From a virus, in IMG/VR virus record IMGVR_UViG_3300010885_027546, positions 1 through 34,091 of that record: a stretch of 34,091 nt of DNA, one strand, 5' to 3'. This document shows positions 3,199 through 30,859 of the stretch, piece by piece. A program made the translations under genes and the position numbers. A model generated the notes under the pieces. The model saw only the letters and a list, made by a program, of their open reading frames with translations. It was not told where the DNA came from and did not search any database. How positions within the stretch are numbered: the first letter of the stretch is position 1; each line of letters starts with the position of its first letter.

Positions 3199-3885
3199 AT
3201 GGCCTACGCAGCAATCACAGACACCCTCAAGAACGACGTCACATCAAAAATACGCAGCCTGAAAGTTGCTGAGGTGAACACCATGCCCGCCCCGGATACG
3301 GTGATGACAAAGATCAACGAAAACACCGAGCTGTTCGAACACGCAGTGAGCCTTCTATGGGCAAATACCGAGCCCGACCTACGCCCTCGCTTGGAGAAGT
3401 ACAACGCGACGGCAGCAATTAGATTCAAGTTCCATGTACCCGCCGAGTACAGCAAAGATGGCAGCACAACGCGAGAGGTTCAAGTCCGGTTCCCCTGCGT
3501 AAAGAGAGTGCCGTGCACAGTAGCGACAACCACCGGTTATGGCGCGCAGACTGAGGGTGTGTTCGAAATCGACTTCGCTGCATCCCCGCTGTTCACCGAG
3601 TACGCCGAGGTTTTCAAGAACTATGTGGAATGTGTTAACCGATGGGACGAGGTAGCCAACCAGGTCACCAACTTCCTGGACAGCTGCAAGTCGGTCAACG
3701 AGGCGCTCAAGCTATGGCCTGATGTCGCGCGCTACTTGCCGAAAGCAAGCATCGCCAAAGTCAACGAAAAATCCGTCAAGCAAACCAGAGACGCGTCTAC
3801 TGCCTTGGCAGCGCTGCAAGCCATTAACATGGACCAGGTCAACACGTCCACCGTCCTGGCACGGATGGCTGGGGCCACCGTCTAG
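3199..3885 (+). CDS. Hypothetical phage protein, 228 residues
   Basis: I chose the ATG preceded by AAAGGA rather than an upstream in-frame ATG that overlaps the previous gene. The predicted product starts MAYAAITDTL, is soluble and mostly helical at both ends, with a beta-rich middle (about 75-130). There are no recognisable active-site motifs. A 68-base gap with a promoter-like sequence follows, so this is probably the last gene of its transcription unit. Confidence 0.75.
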   Translation: MAYAAITDTLKNDVTSKIRSLKVAEVNTMPAPDTVMTKINENTELFEHAVSLLWANTEPDLRPRLEKYNATAAIRFKFHVPAEYSKDGSTTREVQVRFPCVKRVPCTVATTTGYGAQTEGVFEIDFAASPLFTEYAEVFKNYVECVNRWDEVANQVTNFLDSCKSVNEALKLWPDVARYLPKASIAKVNEKSVKQTRDASTALAALQAINMDQVNTSTVLARMAGATV

Positions 3886-4896: not shown

Positions 4897-5003
4897 CACA
4901 GCAAGAATTTGACCGACTCGTTGCGTTGGACATCCAGCGCTTAGTTGCAAAGGCACAAGCGGAATACGAAGCTGCACAAGACGACGAAGGAGAAGAAGCA
5001 TGA
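4893..5003 (+). CDS. Tiny acidic helical protein
   Basis: A 36-residue frame is bounded on both sides by ATGA overlaps and preceded by a GGGGG-rich ribosome site. The predicted product is a single amphipathic helix ending in an acidic run. An AAGGAG for the next gene is embedded in its last codons. No family recognised. The evidence is operon geometry, not homology. Confidence 0.5.
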   Translation: MTQQEFDRLVALDIQRLVAKAQAEYEAAQDDEGEEA

Positions 5004-8468: not shown

Positions 8469-8480
8469 ATATTTTCCTTA

Positions 8481-8534
8481 TGTTCTGTAGCGTACATATG
8501 TTGTGTAGCGTACACATGTTGTGTAGCGTACATA
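8481..8534 (+). repeat. Three 18-base tandem repeats
   Basis: Three head-to-tail copies of TGTTSTGTAGCGTACAYA occupy the gap right after the polymerase. Copies differ at only two positions. Each contains TGTA-GCG-TACA, a small inverted repeat, as expected of a tandem operator or protein-binding site. The third copy runs straight into the duplicated polymerase tail. Confidence 0.75.
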
Positions 8535-8621
8535 TCATGCGGACCCCACCAAGCTGTCTTTCCCGGCATTGTTTTGTGGCCGAAGGGGGGTGTTGCCGCG
8601 AGCTATGGCGGGGCAAAATAA
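8534..8621 (+). pseudogene. Decayed duplicate of the polymerase gene 3' end
   Basis: These 88 bases align with the last 87 bases of the polymerase gene (8382-8468), including the stop codon and the preceding AAAATAA, at about 80 % identity by hand. A one-base insertion breaks the frame, so the tail residues MRTPPSWLPG become MRTPPSCLSR and then diverge. It has no start and no other polymerase sequence, so it is a remnant of duplication or recombination, not a gene. Confidence 0.8.
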
Positions 8622-10532: not shown

Positions 10533-10692
10533 CGCCCCGCCACCGGCAACAGACTTCAGGGCGTGGAATCCAACAACGCTGGCCAAGCTGGCACAAGAAC
10601 TGAAAGACGAGAACGACATGCTGCACAAACAAGTCAAAGACCTGCTCAACGCGCTGCGCCGAGAGTGGACAAAGGAGAACCCACATGCCTAA
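10522..10692 (+). CDS. Small helical hypothetical protein
   Basis: A 56-residue product with a GGAGGAG ribosome site. It overlaps the VRR-NUC gene by 11 bases and the following gene by 8. Residues about 19-50 form a single charged helix with heptad-like leucines. No family recognised; operon position and the strong ribosome site are the main support. Confidence 0.55.
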   Translation: MSTDAPPPATDFRAWNPTTLAKLAQELKDENDMLHKQVKDLLNALRREWTKENPHA

Positions 10693-10957
10693 ATCATCAA
10701 CCACAAAACTAGCTTACCAGAAAGCATTTAATGCAACCCCTGCTCAAAAAGCCCTTGGTGTCGAGAGACGCCGCGAACGCCGTCATGCTATCGCTGATGG
10801 AAAAGTTGCTATCGGTGACGGCAAAGACCTGGCACATATCAAGCCCGCCGACAGCGGCGGAAAAACCACCCCAGCCAACCTCAAAGTTGAGCCAGCCAGC
10901 ACAAACCGTGACTGGCGTAAAGGTCGTAAGGGGTACAAAGTTGGAGTAGATAAATAA
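10685..10957 (+). CDS. Small HNH-like phage protein
   Basis: The 90-residue basic protein has the arrangement of small phage HNH-type proteins: a KAxN-type N-terminal helix, a basic ERRRERRHAI helix, GDGKDLAHIKP with the first His, SGGKTTPANLK with the Asn, and EPASTNR where the final His would be. The last catalytic position is Asn (an HNN variant). Family resemblance is from memory of phage proteins with GDGKHVDHxKPLSKGG. AAAGGAG precedes the ATG. Nuclease activity is uncertain. It is the last gene before the structured repeat array. Confidence 0.65.
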   Translation: MPKSSTTKLAYQKAFNATPAQKALGVERRRERRHAIADGKVAIGDGKDLAHIKPADSGGKTTPANLKVEPASTNRDWRKGRKGYKVGVDK

Positions 10958-11015
10958 ATAGTCTGGGCAAGGCCGGGTTAGGCGTGGCGGGGCATGGCAG
11001 GGCGTGGCAAGGCAA

Positions 11016-11075
11016 GGGCTGACAACAGCGGATTGTGGATAGGCAACTGTCTGCTCTCCGGTGTCGTTAGGCATC
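11016..11075 (+). ncRNA. Array module 1 (type A)
   Basis: Hairpin P1 is GCTG-ACAA-CAGC. P2 is an 8-pair stem (GTGGATAG with CTGTCTGC) closed by a GCAA tetraloop. P3 is GGTGTC-GTTA-GGCATC. Several pairs are G-U and work only in RNA of this strand. Confidence 0.5.
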
Positions 11076-11132
11076 GCGGTTCGGCCGGGCGTGGCAAGGC
11101 CTGGCAGGGCGTGGCGCGGCAGGGCGAGGTTA

Positions 11133-11192
11133 GGGCTGACAACAGTGGATTGGGTATTCGCAACAGTACCTTCTCCGGTGTCGTTAGACATC
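11133..11192 (+). ncRNA. Array module 2 (type B)
   Basis: P1 is as in module 1, but with a G-U outer pair. The type B P2 stem pairs GGGTATT with AGTACCT; a C-C mismatch enlarges the GCAA loop. P3 ends GACATC, turning a U-G pair into U-A. Confidence 0.5.
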
Positions 11193-11264
11193 GCGGTCCG
11201 GTTCGGCCGGGCACGGCACGGTGAGGCAAGGCGCGGCAGGGCGTGGTATGGCAAGGCTTGGCAA

Positions 11265-11324
11265 GGGCTGACAACAGTGGATTGGGTATTGGCAACAGTA
11301 CCTTCTCCGGTGTCGTTAGGCATC
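11265..11324 (+). ncRNA. Array module 3 (type B)
   Basis: The best type B copy: P2 is GGGTATTG-GCAA-CAGTACCT with eight pairs. P1 is GCTG-ACAA-CAGT, and P3 is GGTGTC-GTTA-GGCATC. Confidence 0.5.
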
Positions 11325-11381
11325 GCGGTCTGGTAAGGTCCGGCAGGGCTGGGCAAGGCAAGGCGCGGCAAGGCAAGGCAA

Positions 11382-11441
11382 GGGCTGACAACAGTGGATT
11401 GTGGATAGGCGACTGTCTACTCTCCGGTGTCGTTAGGCATC
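11382..11441 (+). ncRNA. Array module 4 (type A)
   Basis: Type A P2 with the loop changed from GCAA to GCGA, which is still a GNRA tetraloop, and one U-G pair changed to U-A. P1 and P3 are intact. Confidence 0.5.
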
Positions 11442-11483
11442 AAGGTTCGGCTGGGCAGGGCGGGGCTAGGCTGGGCACGGCAA

Positions 11484-11543
11484 GGGCTGACAACAGTGGA
11501 TTGGGTATTGGCAACAGTACCGTCTCCGGTGTCGTTAGACATC
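11484..11543 (+). ncRNA. Array module 5 (type B)
   Basis: Type B P2 with GCAA loop and seven pairs (the outermost is G-G). P1 has a G-U outer pair, and P3 ends GACATC. Confidence 0.5.
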
Positions 11544-11605
11544 AAGGTCCTGCTGGGCATGGCTGGGCTCGGTAGGGCACGGCAAGGTATGGCACGGCAA
11601 GGTAT

Positions 11606-11626
11606 GGGCCGACAACGGCATTTTTT
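11606..11626 (+). terminator. Truncated sixth module forming a weak terminator-like hairpin
   Basis: GCCG-ACAA-CGGC, then A and six Ts. It equals module hairpin P1 with a compensatory U-A to C-G change, followed by a T-tract instead of the rest of the module. The stem is only four pairs, so termination may be partial. Confidence 0.45.
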
Positions 11627-11648
11627 AACTACAAACAAAGGTGTTTAC

Positions 11649-12221
11649 ATGAAAGCATTAAAAGTCAAGATTACAGGTACAGCTCCACTTCTTATGCACT
11701 CTGACAGGTTTGCGAATCCGCTAGACCCGTTAACCAAAGCGCACAAAGAGTTGACGGCAACACGCAAGAAGACTGACGAGACGCACATCGCCATCGCAAA
11801 GAGTGAGTTCATTGGCTCTTGTTACTGGGCAGAAAAGCACGGCGTATTTATTCCCGCGCAGAACCTTGAGTCCTGTCTCATCAACGCTGCGAAACTAAAT
11901 AAGTTGGGCGTGAAGTTCAAGCAGGGGGTTCGTGTGTTGGAGGACGTGCTGGCTATCGACGGCCACACAAAATCAACCCCAGAGTCCTTGTGGGTCATCC
12001 CTGACCACGTAGACGTGCGCGGTGTCAAGGTGACCACCTCAAAAATCATGCGCTACCGTCCCATCTTCAAGCAGTGGGCACTGTCGGCAACAGTGGCGTT
12101 CAACGAAGAAATAGTAAGCGCAGGAGAGGTCAAAAAGGCTATAGCTGATGCGGGCGCGTTTATCGGCCTGTGTGACTACCGCCCACGGTTCGGTCGTTTC
12201 AGCGTGGTGGTATCTGAGTGA
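11649..12221 (+). CDS. Conserved phage protein, faintly RAMP/Cas7-like
   Basis: The 190-residue product starts at the ATG after AACAAAGGTGTTTAC; longer in-frame readings run into the repeat array and are rejected. It opens with a beta strand and TAPLLMHS, has an IPAQNLESCLINAAK helix about residue 75, and ends with IGLCDYRPRFGRFSVV. This layout reminds me of RAMP (Cas7-like) folds, which have an N-terminal strand, a conserved helix and a Gly-rich C-terminal loop. I also recall similar uncharacterised phage proteins. No catalytic residues stand out. It directly follows the structured array and may be controlled by it or bind it; both are speculation. Confidence 0.75.
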   Translation: MKALKVKITGTAPLLMHSDRFANPLDPLTKAHKELTATRKKTDETHIAIAKSEFIGSCYWAEKHGVFIPAQNLESCLINAAKLNKLGVKFKQGVRVLEDVLAIDGHTKSTPESLWVIPDHVDVRGVKVTTSKIMRYRPIFKQWALSATVAFNEEIVSAGEVKKAIADAGAFIGLCDYRPRFGRFSVVVSE

Positions 12222-12676
12222 TGAACAACATCACTTTATACCCAACATGGCGCGAGGCAGCCAAGCTGCTGCTGAACGACGGACTTACTTTTGGCAGTGT
12301 TATCGCCCGCGACACCCTCATTCGTCTGTGCGGTATAGCGCCAGCTACTTCCATCGAAGACGTGGACCGATTTGATCTGGAGGTGCTTCAGGCTATTGCG
12401 TCAATCAAGCAGCACTTACTGCAGAGTCACCGCATGTACATGTTCAGCAGCAAAGCGGGTCAATACACGGTCGCGCACCCTGAAGACCAGACCAGCTTAG
12501 CCCTCGACACAGGGCGCAAGGCCGTTAAAAAAGCCATGCTGAAAATGACAGACGGGGTCAGCTACATTCGCACAGACCTGCTTACTTCTTCAGAGCGCGC
12601 ACGTAACGCGGACGCGCAAGCCAAGATTAGCCAACTCGGCGGAATGATTAAGCATCAGGTAGCGCAAATACCATAG
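12221..12676 (+). CDS. Hypothetical protein
   Basis: A 151-residue mostly helical protein. The ATG shares one base with the preceding TGA (TGATG); an upstream GTG adds one residue and cannot be excluded. Residues about 10-50 carry two helices; the C-terminal half is basic. It ends five bases before the helicase gene, so a role with the helicase is plausible. No family recognised. Confidence 0.7.
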   Translation: MNNITLYPTWREAAKLLLNDGLTFGSVIARDTLIRLCGIAPATSIEDVDRFDLEVLQAIASIKQHLLQSHRMYMFSSKAGQYTVAHPEDQTSLALDTGRKAVKKAMLKMTDGVSYIRTDLLTSSERARNADAQAKISQLGGMIKHQVAQIP

Positions 12677-19652: not shown

Positions 19653-20723
19653 ATGGGCTCAATTGTCTCACGCAAGCGAAAAGATGGCACCGTCGGCCAC
19701 ACCGCCCAGATCCGTTTGAAAGAAGGCGGCAAAGTCATCTTCACCGAGACGCAGACCTTCGAGAAAAAGACAGTGGCGCAGAACTGGCTGAAAAAACGAG
19801 AGGTCGAACTGGCCGTGCCAGGGGCGTTGGACAAACCCCGAGACCCACCGCTCAGTGAAGTGATCGACCAGTACAACAACGACAAGCTGCGTGCACATGG
19901 TAAGACCAAAACGCAGGTACTACGCACCATCCAGGCCGCTGACATTGGTGGTATGAAATGCTCTGAAATCACCAGCCAGACCGTGGTGAAGTTTGCCCAG
20001 AGCATTGACGCCGAGCCATCTACGCGCGGCAATTACATAAGTCACTTAGCCAGTATCTTTGTCGTGGCTCGTCCGGCTTGGGGCTACCCGCTCGATAAAC
20101 AAGCGATGGAAGATGCCAAAGTGGTGCTCAACAAAATGGGCGTGATCGGCAAGTCTAGAGAGCGCTCGCGCCGCCCCACGCTTGATGAGCTTGACCGGCT
20201 GCTGCGCTACTACACAACAGCAGAGCGCAAACGCTCTAACGCCATCCCCATGACGGCAATCATCCTGTTTGCTATTTTTAGCACGCGGCGGCAGGAAGAA
20301 ATTACGCGCATGGTTCGCAAAGACCTTGACAGGGCAAACCTAGAAATTATTGTGCGCGACATGAAAAACCCAGGCGAAAAAATCGGCAACGACGTGACGA
20401 CCAGCCTGACGCCTGAAGCCCTACAGCTGATTGACCTGCAACCAGTTACCAAGGGCCAGTTATGGCCTTTTAATGCCGACTCTATCAGCACCTCATTTAC
20501 CCGTGCCTGCAAATTCTTGGGGATTGAAAACCTGCATTTTCACGACCTGCGGCACGACGGCATCAGCCGGTTGTTTGAAATGGGCTGGAGTATTCCGCGC
20601 GTGGCCACCGTATCAGGACACCGATCATGGTCAAGCCTCAAGCGCTACACCCACATGCGCCAGACCGGCGACAAATACAAAGACTGGCCTTGGCTAACAA
20701 AGGTGATGGGCTCGCCAGTCTAA
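19653..20723 (+). CDS. Tyrosine recombinase (phage integrase)
   Basis: The 356-residue integrase has an N-terminal DNA-binding strand region (about 1-60), a SAM-like core-binding domain (about 65-150) and a catalytic domain. Catalytic residues visible are the first Arg in STRRQEE (R213), HDLR (H297, R300), GH (H323) and the nucleophile Tyr in KRYTHM (Y332). No ribosome site is evident; an inverted TGTAGCAC element lies 5-12 bases before the ATG, so integrase binding there could repress its own translation or transcription. It is the last plus-strand gene before the convergent virion block. Confidence 0.95.
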   Translation: MGSIVSRKRKDGTVGHTAQIRLKEGGKVIFTETQTFEKKTVAQNWLKKREVELAVPGALDKPRDPPLSEVIDQYNNDKLRAHGKTKTQVLRTIQAADIGGMKCSEITSQTVVKFAQSIDAEPSTRGNYISHLASIFVVARPAWGYPLDKQAMEDAKVVLNKMGVIGKSRERSRRPTLDELDRLLRYYTTAERKRSNAIPMTAIILFAIFSTRRQEEITRMVRKDLDRANLEIIVRDMKNPGEKIGNDVTTSLTPEALQLIDLQPVTKGQLWPFNADSISTSFTRACKFLGIENLHFHDLRHDGISRLFEMGWSIPRVATVSGHRSWSSLKRYTHMRQTGDKYKDWPWLTKVMGSPV

Positions 20724-28205: not shown

Positions 28206-30137
28206 TCACAGTCCGTAACTTTTCTTGATTGCACCGATTTCTGCCAAATACCCATTTGCTTCAACGGTCTTGCCGCGTCGGATGGCATCATCCTTTTTTG
28301 CAAGTAGTTTTGGAACTCTTGGGTCAGCGTTTAACTTCTCAGTTCCGGCGGCAACTTGCTTCTGTCTTTCCTTAAAAAAGTCTAGAGGCGGTTGATTAGC
28401 GCGGGTGGTATCTAAGCCTTGCGGCTGCGTAGTCCCCGCAGCCTTACTGCCTGGTGCTGCTTTTGGTACCTCTTTTAGCCACGGCACTTTACTGGCGTCA
28501 ATCGGGGTGTGGGAGAAAAGTCTATTGAAATCTTCAAGGTCTGCTGCGGTTTGTTTAGTTCCATCCGGCTTACGAGGGTTCATCAACTGGTTCACAGCAC
28601 TCGCAGGAGCAAAACCACGGCTTCCATAAAATGCGTCTTTGTCTGCTGGTAAATCTTTTACATTGCCGTCACCAATACGTTTCTTTTCTATATCAGCCCA
28701 GACGTTATCTATCTGGTATTTGATCGCTGCTGAACCGCCCTTGTTACCCCCTCCAACACCTGCAAGGCCCGCACCCGGTTTTGTATTTAGCATTTGAAGC
28801 TGTTTACGAATACCATCCCCTTCTAGGCCTGCTTGTTGCGGGGGGGTTAGCGCATCAAACCTGGTGTTCAAGTCCTGTATAGCTACTTCATTTTTTGCCC
28901 CCGCTTCCAACGCCGTGGTTCTGGCTTTGTTGTAGTCGCTTGTGCTTTGTGCGCTAATCACATGCGCACCTGCGCTAGTAACCGCCGCACTAGCTTGCTT
29001 TTCCGTCGCCTTGGTCGTACGCTCGTGTAAGTTGTCATTAAACTGGTTACGCGAAAAGCTATACAAAGCCAGGGGGTCTTTAAAGCTCATCAAACCGTTC
29101 AGCATCTCCTCACGCGACTTGAAGACGGTCGGGGCCATTGGTCTGCCATCCAGTGACTTGCGGTTCATGGTTATGCTGCCGTCTTTGTCTTGGGTGATAC
29201 CCGTAGACTGCCCGCCGTCTGGCACGTATTTGTTGTAGAAGTCCGCCACCCCTTGCCAGTTACCCGCCGCAAGATGCCCAGCAGCGACGTTTATGGCCTC
29301 GCCACGCGTCGATGCCTGCAAGGCAATCGTGGTCAGGGACTGCTGCGCAAACTCTTTCATCGTTGCGTTGGCAGCGTCTACCCGGCCTGCTTTGAGCTGT
29401 AAAGTCGCCCTGTGCTGCAGCGCGCCGGTATGGTCCTCCATCGTCAGCGCGCGAGGCGTGCCGTCTTTGTTTTGAGCTAAGCTTGCCAAGTACTTCCCAT
29501 TTTCAACCCCAATTTCTCGGTCAGTCTTTTCGTCAGCTGCGACTTGCTCCTCATGGACGTCTTGTCTTTCACCTCGTTTTTTTCTTAGGCCAAATTCGGC
29601 CTGCTCGTTTCCAAAAGTGGTCTGCGCGTTTCCAAACGTGGTTTGCTCATTTTTAAAACGCTGGGCGTCCCGCTCGCCCGCCGTGATCTGCTGCTGCAAA
29701 GCCATGCCGCGAATCGGGTCGGTCTTGGAAATTACGCCCGCCATGGCGCGGTTGCGCAAACCCTCCATGCGCTCGGGGCTCAACTCATTTGCGTTGTATC
29801 GCTGGCCTAAGAAGGTCGACATGCGCTGGGGCTGTATTCCAAATGCCGTGCCTTGGGGAACCGGTATGCCGTCGTCACCTTGGTACGCTGTGTTGGCACG
29901 CACGTTGTAGCCGCCATCAGTGCCGGGTTCCATGGTGTAGCGGGCAGTGCCATCTTCGTTCTTATCTTGCGCAAACTGTCGCAAGCTGTCGAGGTTAGCC
30001 TCGCTGTAGCCCTGAGAGTCTTCTCGGGTGGCTTTTTGGATGTCCTCAAATTCTTGTTGCTGCTTGGACGACTGATAGGTATCAATCAACCCTTTTGCAA
30101 ATTGCTGGCCTGCTGCAAATTTACTTGCAAAAGTCAT
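28206..30137 (-). CDS. Probable internal virion protein, 643 residues
   Basis: A long, mostly helical Gln/Ala-rich protein with TTGGAGAAG before its ATG, which overlaps the preceding stop as ATGA. Residues 161-183 contain three short TTFGN-type repeats, followed by a basic patch (LRKKRGER). No enzyme motif is visible. Size, helical composition and the place between a 267-residue protein and the giant match the middle of the three-protein ejection set (gp15-like) in podovirus-type phages. There is no sequence proof of that role. Confidence 0.7.
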   Translation of the reverse strand: MTFASKFAAGQQFAKGLIDTYQSSKQQQEFEDIQKATREDSQGYSEANLDSLRQFAQDKNEDGTARYTMEPGTDGGYNVRANTAYQGDDGIPVPQGTAFGIQPQRMSTFLGQRYNANELSPERMEGLRNRAMAGVISKTDPIRGMALQQQITAGERDAQRFKNEQTTFGNAQTTFGNEQAEFGLRKKRGERQDVHEEQVAADEKTDREIGVENGKYLASLAQNKDGTPRALTMEDHTGALQHRATLQLKAGRVDAANATMKEFAQQSLTTIALQASTRGEAINVAAGHLAAGNWQGVADFYNKYVPDGGQSTGITQDKDGSITMNRKSLDGRPMAPTVFKSREEMLNGLMSFKDPLALYSFSRNQFNDNLHERTTKATEKQASAAVTSAGAHVISAQSTSDYNKARTTALEAGAKNEVAIQDLNTRFDALTPPQQAGLEGDGIRKQLQMLNTKPGAGLAGVGGGNKGGSAAIKYQIDNVWADIEKKRIGDGNVKDLPADKDAFYGSRGFAPASAVNQLMNPRKPDGTKQTAADLEDFNRLFSHTPIDASKVPWLKEVPKAAPGSKAAGTTQPQGLDTTRANQPPLDFFKERQKQVAAGTEKLNADPRVPKLLAKKDDAIRRGKTVEANGYLAEIGAIKKSYGL

Positions 30138-30859
30138 GATGCTTCTCCAATTTCAAAGTCAAGTTCTGCCAGATGCGAACGCAGTGCCTCGCGTACGTCT
30201 TGAAGGCTGATGCGGTAGGCGTCTAGTCGCTCGGGGTGTTTGCTTTTCAAGTACGCGGCCTTGCCGTCGTCCCACCATGCAGTGCAGGATAAGCACTCGG
30301 GGGCGCTGATGCCTTGAAAGTGTTCGTAGATATCGTTTTTCGGAGCGCCCACTTCGCGCAGGTACGCAAAGACTTGCTCGTGGCTCCAGTGCTTTATTGG
30401 CAGCAGCACGTCATAGTGCCCGGTAGGCCCCTCGTGCGGAACCTGGCCGGTGTCGGCCAATTTGGTGCCCCGAATCACAGCGTCAACGCCATCCGCCAGC
30501 ATCCGCTCGTGCATGGGGGCCATCAGGTTCTGGTAGCAGCAATCAAATCGGTTGGACAGGCGCTGCTCACTCATGCCATACGCCACGCCTAGCCAATGAG
30601 CTTTTGCCGGAACCACATCAACGGGGTCGCCGTTAACTTTGCGCCACGCGCGCGCGTCGGACTGGACCTCTACAAAATGAGGCACCCAGGGGCGTATTTG
30701 TTCGACCACCGCCAGCGTCTCCGAGCAGCCATCCTGCGTGTTCAGCCAATAAACGGTAACACGATCCAGCTGATCGGCTAACAGATATAGGCAAGCGAGC
30801 GAATCCTTGCCCCCCGAAAAATGGAGAGCTGGGCGCTGGTATTTAGCCAAGTTGAGCAT
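30134..30859 (-). CDS. PAPS reductase-family (PP-loop) protein
   Basis: The 241-residue protein has the PP-loop SGGKDS at residues 15-20 and the overall layout of phosphoadenosine phosphosulfate reductase-like adenylating enzymes. Cysteines occur at FDCCYQN and PECLSC; the C-terminal ECGLH catalytic motif of true PAPS reductases is absent. The gene overlaps both neighbours (TGATG and ATGA), so it is translated with the virion proteins. Related phage proteins are known, but their substrate is unclear. Possible roles are nucleotide or RNA thiolation or sulfur supply; I cannot choose between them. Confidence 0.85.
   Translation of the reverse strand: MLNLAKYQRPALHFSGGKDSLACLYLLADQLDRVTVYWLNTQDGCSETLAVVEQIRPWVPHFVEVQSDARAWRKVNGDPVDVVPAKAHWLGVAYGMSEQRLSNRFDCCYQNLMAPMHERMLADGVDAVIRGTKLADTGQVPHEGPTGHYDVLLPIKHWSHEQVFAYLREVGAPKNDIYEHFQGISAPECLSCTAWWDDGKAAYLKSKHPERLDAYRISLQDVREALRSHLAELDFEIGEAS

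Follow-up and report, generated by a model that had tools for sequence, protein, structure and literature searches.

The question raised by this locus is what occupies the gap of about 690 bases between a small open reading frame ending at position 10957 and the gene starting at 11649 in a 34,091-base IMG/VR virus record (the window, by which we mean this whole stretch). The first-pass annotation, made from the sequence alone, described the gap as filled by an array of hairpin modules that fitted no named RNA family known to it and offered as candidates a structured phage RNA, a replication origin and a recombination array. Taken as a whole, the array and its adjoining genes are best explained, almost certainly correctly, as a Viral Interference Programmable Repeat (VIPR) locus, in which pentanucleotide tracts lying 5' of the hairpins would be the guides of a Vipr protein for DNA silencing.

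The modules themselves are as described. Five of them, each exactly 60 nt long, lie on the plus strand in the order A B B A B: tail 1 (type A, 11016-11075), tail 2 (type B, 11133-11192), tail 3 (type B, 11265-11324), tail 4 (type A, with a GCGA loop replacing GCAA, 11382-11441) and tail 5 (type B, 11484-11543). All five start with GGGCTGACAACAG and end with TCTCCGGTGTCGTTAG-RCATC. They are not contiguous, being spaced at 117, 132, 117 and 102 nt from start to start, and rather than filling the gap they cover just 300 bases of it, less than half; the rest, between and before the modules, is nearly all tandem GGYNN pentanucleotides. The truncated sixth module does exist as a reduced copy (GGGCCGACAACGGCATTTTTT, plus strand, 11606-11626, consisting of stem 1 only, then A and T6), and what had been read as a module is really the last of six GGYNN tracts, with stem 1 and T6 after it. 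This stem, GCCG-ACAA-CGGC, is compensatory to the GCUG/CAGC of the full tails (a U-A to C-G double change), and the reduced tail looks terminator-like, its 4-bp stem lying below the threshold of the terminator scan; a consensus scan of 10600-11760 passed no sigma-70 promoter-like and no terminator-like site. The spacings are all multiples of three, and a protein-coding array was considered and rejected, as stops occur within the array in all six frames. An exact-pattern search of IMG/VR with the module start gave six matches to unrelated sequences lacking an array, a match to the module end (L012) was likewise to an unrelated sequence, and in blastn against phages the sole matches of the array were to mycobacteriophages Quico and Florinda and lay in the GC-rich pentamer tract.

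Six GGYNN tracts of 10, 11, 14, 11, 8 and 12 units (66 units in total) lie one 5' of each of modules 1 to 6, all on the plus strand. Guide tract 1 (10966-11015) has the NN series AA CG TA GT GG AT AG GT AA AA; guide tract 2 (11078-11132), TC CG GT AA CT AG GT GC AG GA TA; guide tract 3 (11195-11264), CC TC CG AC AC GA AA GC AG GT AT AA TT AA; guide tract 4 (11327-11381), CT AA CC AG TG AA AA GC AA AA AA; and guide tract 5 (11444-11483), TC TG AG GG TA TG AC AA. Tract 6 (11546-11605) has one TGCTG among its 12 units and a perfect 10-unit run from 11556. Positions 1 and 2 of the unit are constant apart from a single deviation, position 3 takes C or T and NN is close to random, the entropies over the 66 units being 0.11, 0 and 0.77 bits at G, G and Y and 1.78 and 1.98 bits at the two N positions. 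The array contains 64 GGY..GG steps, compared with a mean of 10 and a maximum of 22 in 1000 dinucleotide shuffles, and its longest run is 14 units, compared with at most 5 in the same number of shuffles; the rest of the window holds no GGYNN run of three or more units. The hairpins are real, and the first-pass annotation, in taking them for the whole feature, missed both the information-bearing tracts 5' of them and the partner gene at 11649.

On the plus strand the five modules fold with energies of -21.8 to -30 kcal/mol (z -2.1 to -4.5), whereas the minus strand of the three modules tried is unremarkable (z -0.1 to -1.2). Stem 2 carries the compensatory changes that distinguish type A from type B. 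Our preferred fold has three stems: stem 1 (GCUG/CAGC), a long stem 2 (with the GCAA/GCGA loop in the window) and stem 3 (GGUGUC/GRCAUC). In an alignment of 20 tails from the window and its relatives (L016, L020, L144 and L149-L151), 94.1% of cells pair and both sides change in 13 of the 21 pairs, G-U pairs included, in counts that are biased towards pairing at the ends by hand-trimming of the rows to the tail, stem 2 being independent of the trimming. The covariation score of this model is 0.578, compared with 0.195 for shuffled and at most 0.149 for slid alignments. The single extended hairpin chosen by minimum free energy shares stem 2 and pairs in 87.7% of cells. In isolation the three-stem fold is about 2-5.5 kcal/mol weaker; we nevertheless prefer it because it pairs better across the homologues, where several pairs unique to the extended hairpin break in 5-10 of the 20 sequences.

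A covariance model of the tail, run on 49 sources, found 54 copies, every one of them in a locus with an array or a Vipr; 20 of the 54 are sequences used to build the model or their like. All five tails of the window were recovered, tail 1 at 67.3 bits with a model built partly from it. Copies occur also in a Rhodoferax MAG (L141) and in Alcaligenaceae (L142 and L143); none was found in the loci of phages SUSP1 and wV8, in six array loci with a more distant Vipr or none (L028, L038, L083, L097, L131 and L133) or in 11 unrelated control loci. An Rfam scan of the window gave no match at the gathering threshold, in agreement with the first-pass annotation, which knew of no named family that fits; the reason is that Rfam has no VIPR entry and that the system was first described in 2026. 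The tail family of the window is a possible future Rfam entry.

The gene downstream of the array (11649-12221, plus strand) encodes a 190-aa protein of the phrog_4652 family, which we call vipr on the basis of homology and predicted fold. Over 192 aa its product shares 39.6% identity with the Vipr of SUSP1 (KT454805; E 5e-55), and a profile search of PDB sequences matched it to 36pp, 'SUSP1 Vipr protein', with an E of 2.4e-62. An AlphaFold2 model (pLDDT 93.1) has class 1 CRISPR effector chains as its best Foldseek matches, led by type VII Cas7 and Csm3, and VIA-align gave Z up to 11.3; on these matches the modelled product is a RAMP protein of the Cas7 fold. The Foldseek lists, from a library reaching 2026-04-08, contained no Vipr chain, and the Vipr structure was matched by sequence instead. 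The next gene (12218-12676, plus strand, phrog_5926) is a vap1 homologue, since the profile of its family recovers SUSP1 vap1 (E 7e-22). Within the genome collection, the Rhodoferax MAG encodes the nearest Vipr, at 71% identity.

VIPR is a phage-borne, CRISPR-related system of RNA-guided DNA silencing first reported in 2026 (bioRxiv 2026.04.26.720920, PMC13142463). It pairs a phage RAMP protein, Vipr, with a guide, the vrRNA, that is built from 9-16 YNNGG units and ends in a structured 3' tail. Double-stranded DNA is read through the variable NN dinucleotides, with one base skipped each time, and competing mobile elements are repressed in this way; the recognition code is reported to be noncontiguous and RNA-guided, and VIPR is proposed to be ancestral to class 1 CRISPR (PMC13142463). 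The SUSP1 and P. fulva VIPRs were studied experimentally and target DNA (PMC13142463). The window shares with these a Vipr homologue, GGY/NN tracts, structured tails after five of the tracts and a vap gene beside vipr; the tracts of 10, 11, 14, 11 and 12 units fall within the published range and guide 5, with 8, is one unit short. The homology of its Vipr to that of SUSP1, together with the vap1 homologue, identifies the window as a VIPR locus, to which we assign the function with high confidence from homology and architecture, and the same two homologies to SUSP1 may make it type II-like. By extension from the published experiments on the SUSP1 and P. fulva relatives, the array would be transcribed into vrRNAs of about 100-130 nt, Vipr subunits would line up on each GGYNN tract, gripping GGY and leaving the NN dinucleotides exposed, and the NN string would read double-stranded DNA with one base skipped between dinucleotides. 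With the help of Vap1 the bound complex would then silence a competitor, whether phage, satellite or prophage, at the level of transcription (PMC13142463), and the phage would carry five, or six, differently aimed silencers.

Comparison with known systems places the locus more closely. With the SUSP1 VIPR (type II; PDB 36pp) it shares a Vipr homologous over its full length, the order vipr then vap1, and GGY/NN tracts each capped with a structured 3' tail. It differs in that all six tracts lie upstream of vipr, whereas in SUSP1 the genes are preceded by one vrRNA and followed by three; in that Y is mostly C, whereas in SUSP1 it is mostly T; and in the tail, which is three-stemmed in the window and reported to contain a pseudoknot in the SUSP1 clade (PMC13142463). 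As the tail model is silent on SUSP1 and wV8, the RNA half appears akin in architecture and not in sequence. The same tail family as in the window is found in VIPR-like loci of Pseudomonas and Burkholderiales (LESphi2, L020; L143-L150; the Rhodoferax MAG, L141), whose Viprs are 48-71% identical to that of the window (LESphi2 48-49%) and in which the number and position of vrRNAs vary, several (L141-L148) having tails downstream of vipr instead; the P. fulva prophage VIPR of the preprint probably belongs to this group. Class 1 CRISPR-Cas effectors (Csm3, type VII Cas7) have in common with the window the RAMP fold and a variable guide joined to a constant structured handle. They use unique contiguous spacers, whereas all intervals between the tails of the window are GGYNN tracts, the window has a single RAMP, and no cas genes were found among the neighbour genes scanned around the array.

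The association of such tracts with Vipr was also recovered from the DNA pattern. A pattern-only scan of IMG/VR viral contigs for 8 consecutive GGYNN units yielded at least 120 loci (L021-L140), and the open reading frames flanking the listed arrays formed one dominant protein cluster, which is the phrog_4652 family of the gene at 11649. With a Vipr profile built from relatives picked by protein similarity, a homologue was found encoded in 87 of the 120 array loci listed, compared with 0 of 52 control loci. The association, recovered independently in 87 viral loci, lends support to the published claim that the system is widespread (PMC13142463). The other 33 of the 120 had no Vipr match in the fetched DNA (29 with a broader profile); truncated loci, divergent Viprs and arrays served by a Vipr encoded elsewhere are candidate reasons. 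The layouts of these contigs are diverse: L022 has a long repeated tail, the L131 array combines GGTNN units with a regular AAGGCTAATG block, and the L133, L097 and L028 arrays show a periodic GGCAGGC with 4-nt steps. A second family of about 160 aa, with the motif LH..F.WDD.EA...R..QAR.LI, lies beside many arrays (21 open reading frames clustered; loci include L032, L034, L077, L089, L113, L123 and L130) and probably represents a vap-like accessory gene from a different type of VIPR. In Escherichia phage wV8 (L216), the GenBank 'DR_4' repeats at 2259-2316 and 3652-3709 overlap the vrRNA tails flanking its vipr homologue.

The candidates of the first-pass annotation can be weighed on this evidence. 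Its structured phage RNA is borne out by the sense-strand hairpins and by their compensatory changes across homologues. The same data leave the replication origin and the recombination array unsupported: a hairpin element acting at the DNA level would suit the location of the array in the replication and recombination gene region of the window, and yet structure and folding energy are confined to one strand, the pairs covary as RNA does, with G-U pairs included, and unrelated contigs combine an array with a RAMP protein, so that we regard either element as extremely improbable. Even less credence is due to a type III toxin-antitoxin RNA of the ToxIN kind, with its repeat RNA, terminator and toxin gene. 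The layout of repeats, a short hairpin with T6 and then a small 190-aa gene recalls it superficially; the repeats, however, are not near-identical processing units, and the downstream protein is not a ToxN-like endoribonuclease, having instead a Cas7/RAMP fold that matches the solved Vipr.

A less distant alternative accepts a VIPR locus and takes the array beside vipr to serve mostly as a leader that regulates Vipr or as an RNA sponge for it, instead of as a set of DNA-targeting guides. In keeping with this are tract 6, which stops 41 nt short of the vipr start codon and is without most of its tail, the similar reduced vipr-proximal tracts in L150, L151 and L153, and the target searches described below, which gave none. 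Against it, five tracts bear full conserved tails, their NN positions are near-random as guides should be, and relatives target DNA (PMC13142463), and we therefore consider it very unlikely for the array as a whole. The vipr-proximal tract taken by itself is another matter. A GGYNN run lies directly before vipr in eight loci; this nearest tract tends to carry a shortened tail or none, in arrays whose remaining tails are full. Directly before vipr, the tail is complete in L013 and L016; shows stems 1 and 2 by eye, without stem 3, in L020 and L149 (the covariance model scored L020 weakly, at 24.7 bits, and reported no copy in L149); is cut to stem 1 in the window and in L150 (about 4940-5000); is a different short hairpin in L151 (about 1955-2026); and is absent in L153 (about 4924-5000). 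We tentatively suggest, as a possibility that we rate well below even, that this tract is an autoregulatory leader and not a guide, with free Vipr binding the repeats in the 5' region of its own mRNA and holding its own production down until enough tailed vrRNAs are present to absorb it. Such a leader, if real, would be a built-in sensor of guide supply, a feature that the preprint's main text does not mention (PMC13142463).

With the tracts read as VIPR guides, the decoded guides were searched under the one-base-skip rule, and no convincing target was found. Guides 2 and 3 (10 units, exact) had no match in IMG/VR. The eight-unit core of guide 1 matched nine IMG/VR stretches, three of which match all ten units (20/20 bases); these three are near-identical contigs (up to 107 kb) of an AT-rich phage and represent one locus, where the skipped base is off the wobble position of the open reading frame. 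As the chance of such a match is estimated at roughly 2-10%, we do not claim it as a target. The eight-unit core of guide 6 matched 43 IMG/VR stretches and was discarded, since the flanking units agree at roughly chance level. In 301 Rhodoferax-family genomes, guide 3 (11 units) with up to 3 mismatches gave one match compared with about six estimated by chance, and the searches in the Rhodoferax family and genus produced nothing exceeding chance. In 1.4 Mb of fetched loci, with skips of 0-3, the array itself was the sole match.

The locus is a compact six-tract environmental example of VIPR whose guides can be read directly, and it leaves knowledge of how VIPR works unchanged. An integrase gene (19653-20723) indicates that the phage carrying the array is temperate, which agrees with the report that most VIPRs are located in proviruses (PMC13142463). 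Elsewhere in the window, a phosphoadenosine phosphosulfate reductase auxiliary gene is present at 30134-30859, and an 18-bp direct repeat, TATGTTGTGTAGCGTACA, which appears iteron- or operator-like, is present in 3.2 copies at 8479-8535, between the DNA polymerase gene and the one that follows.
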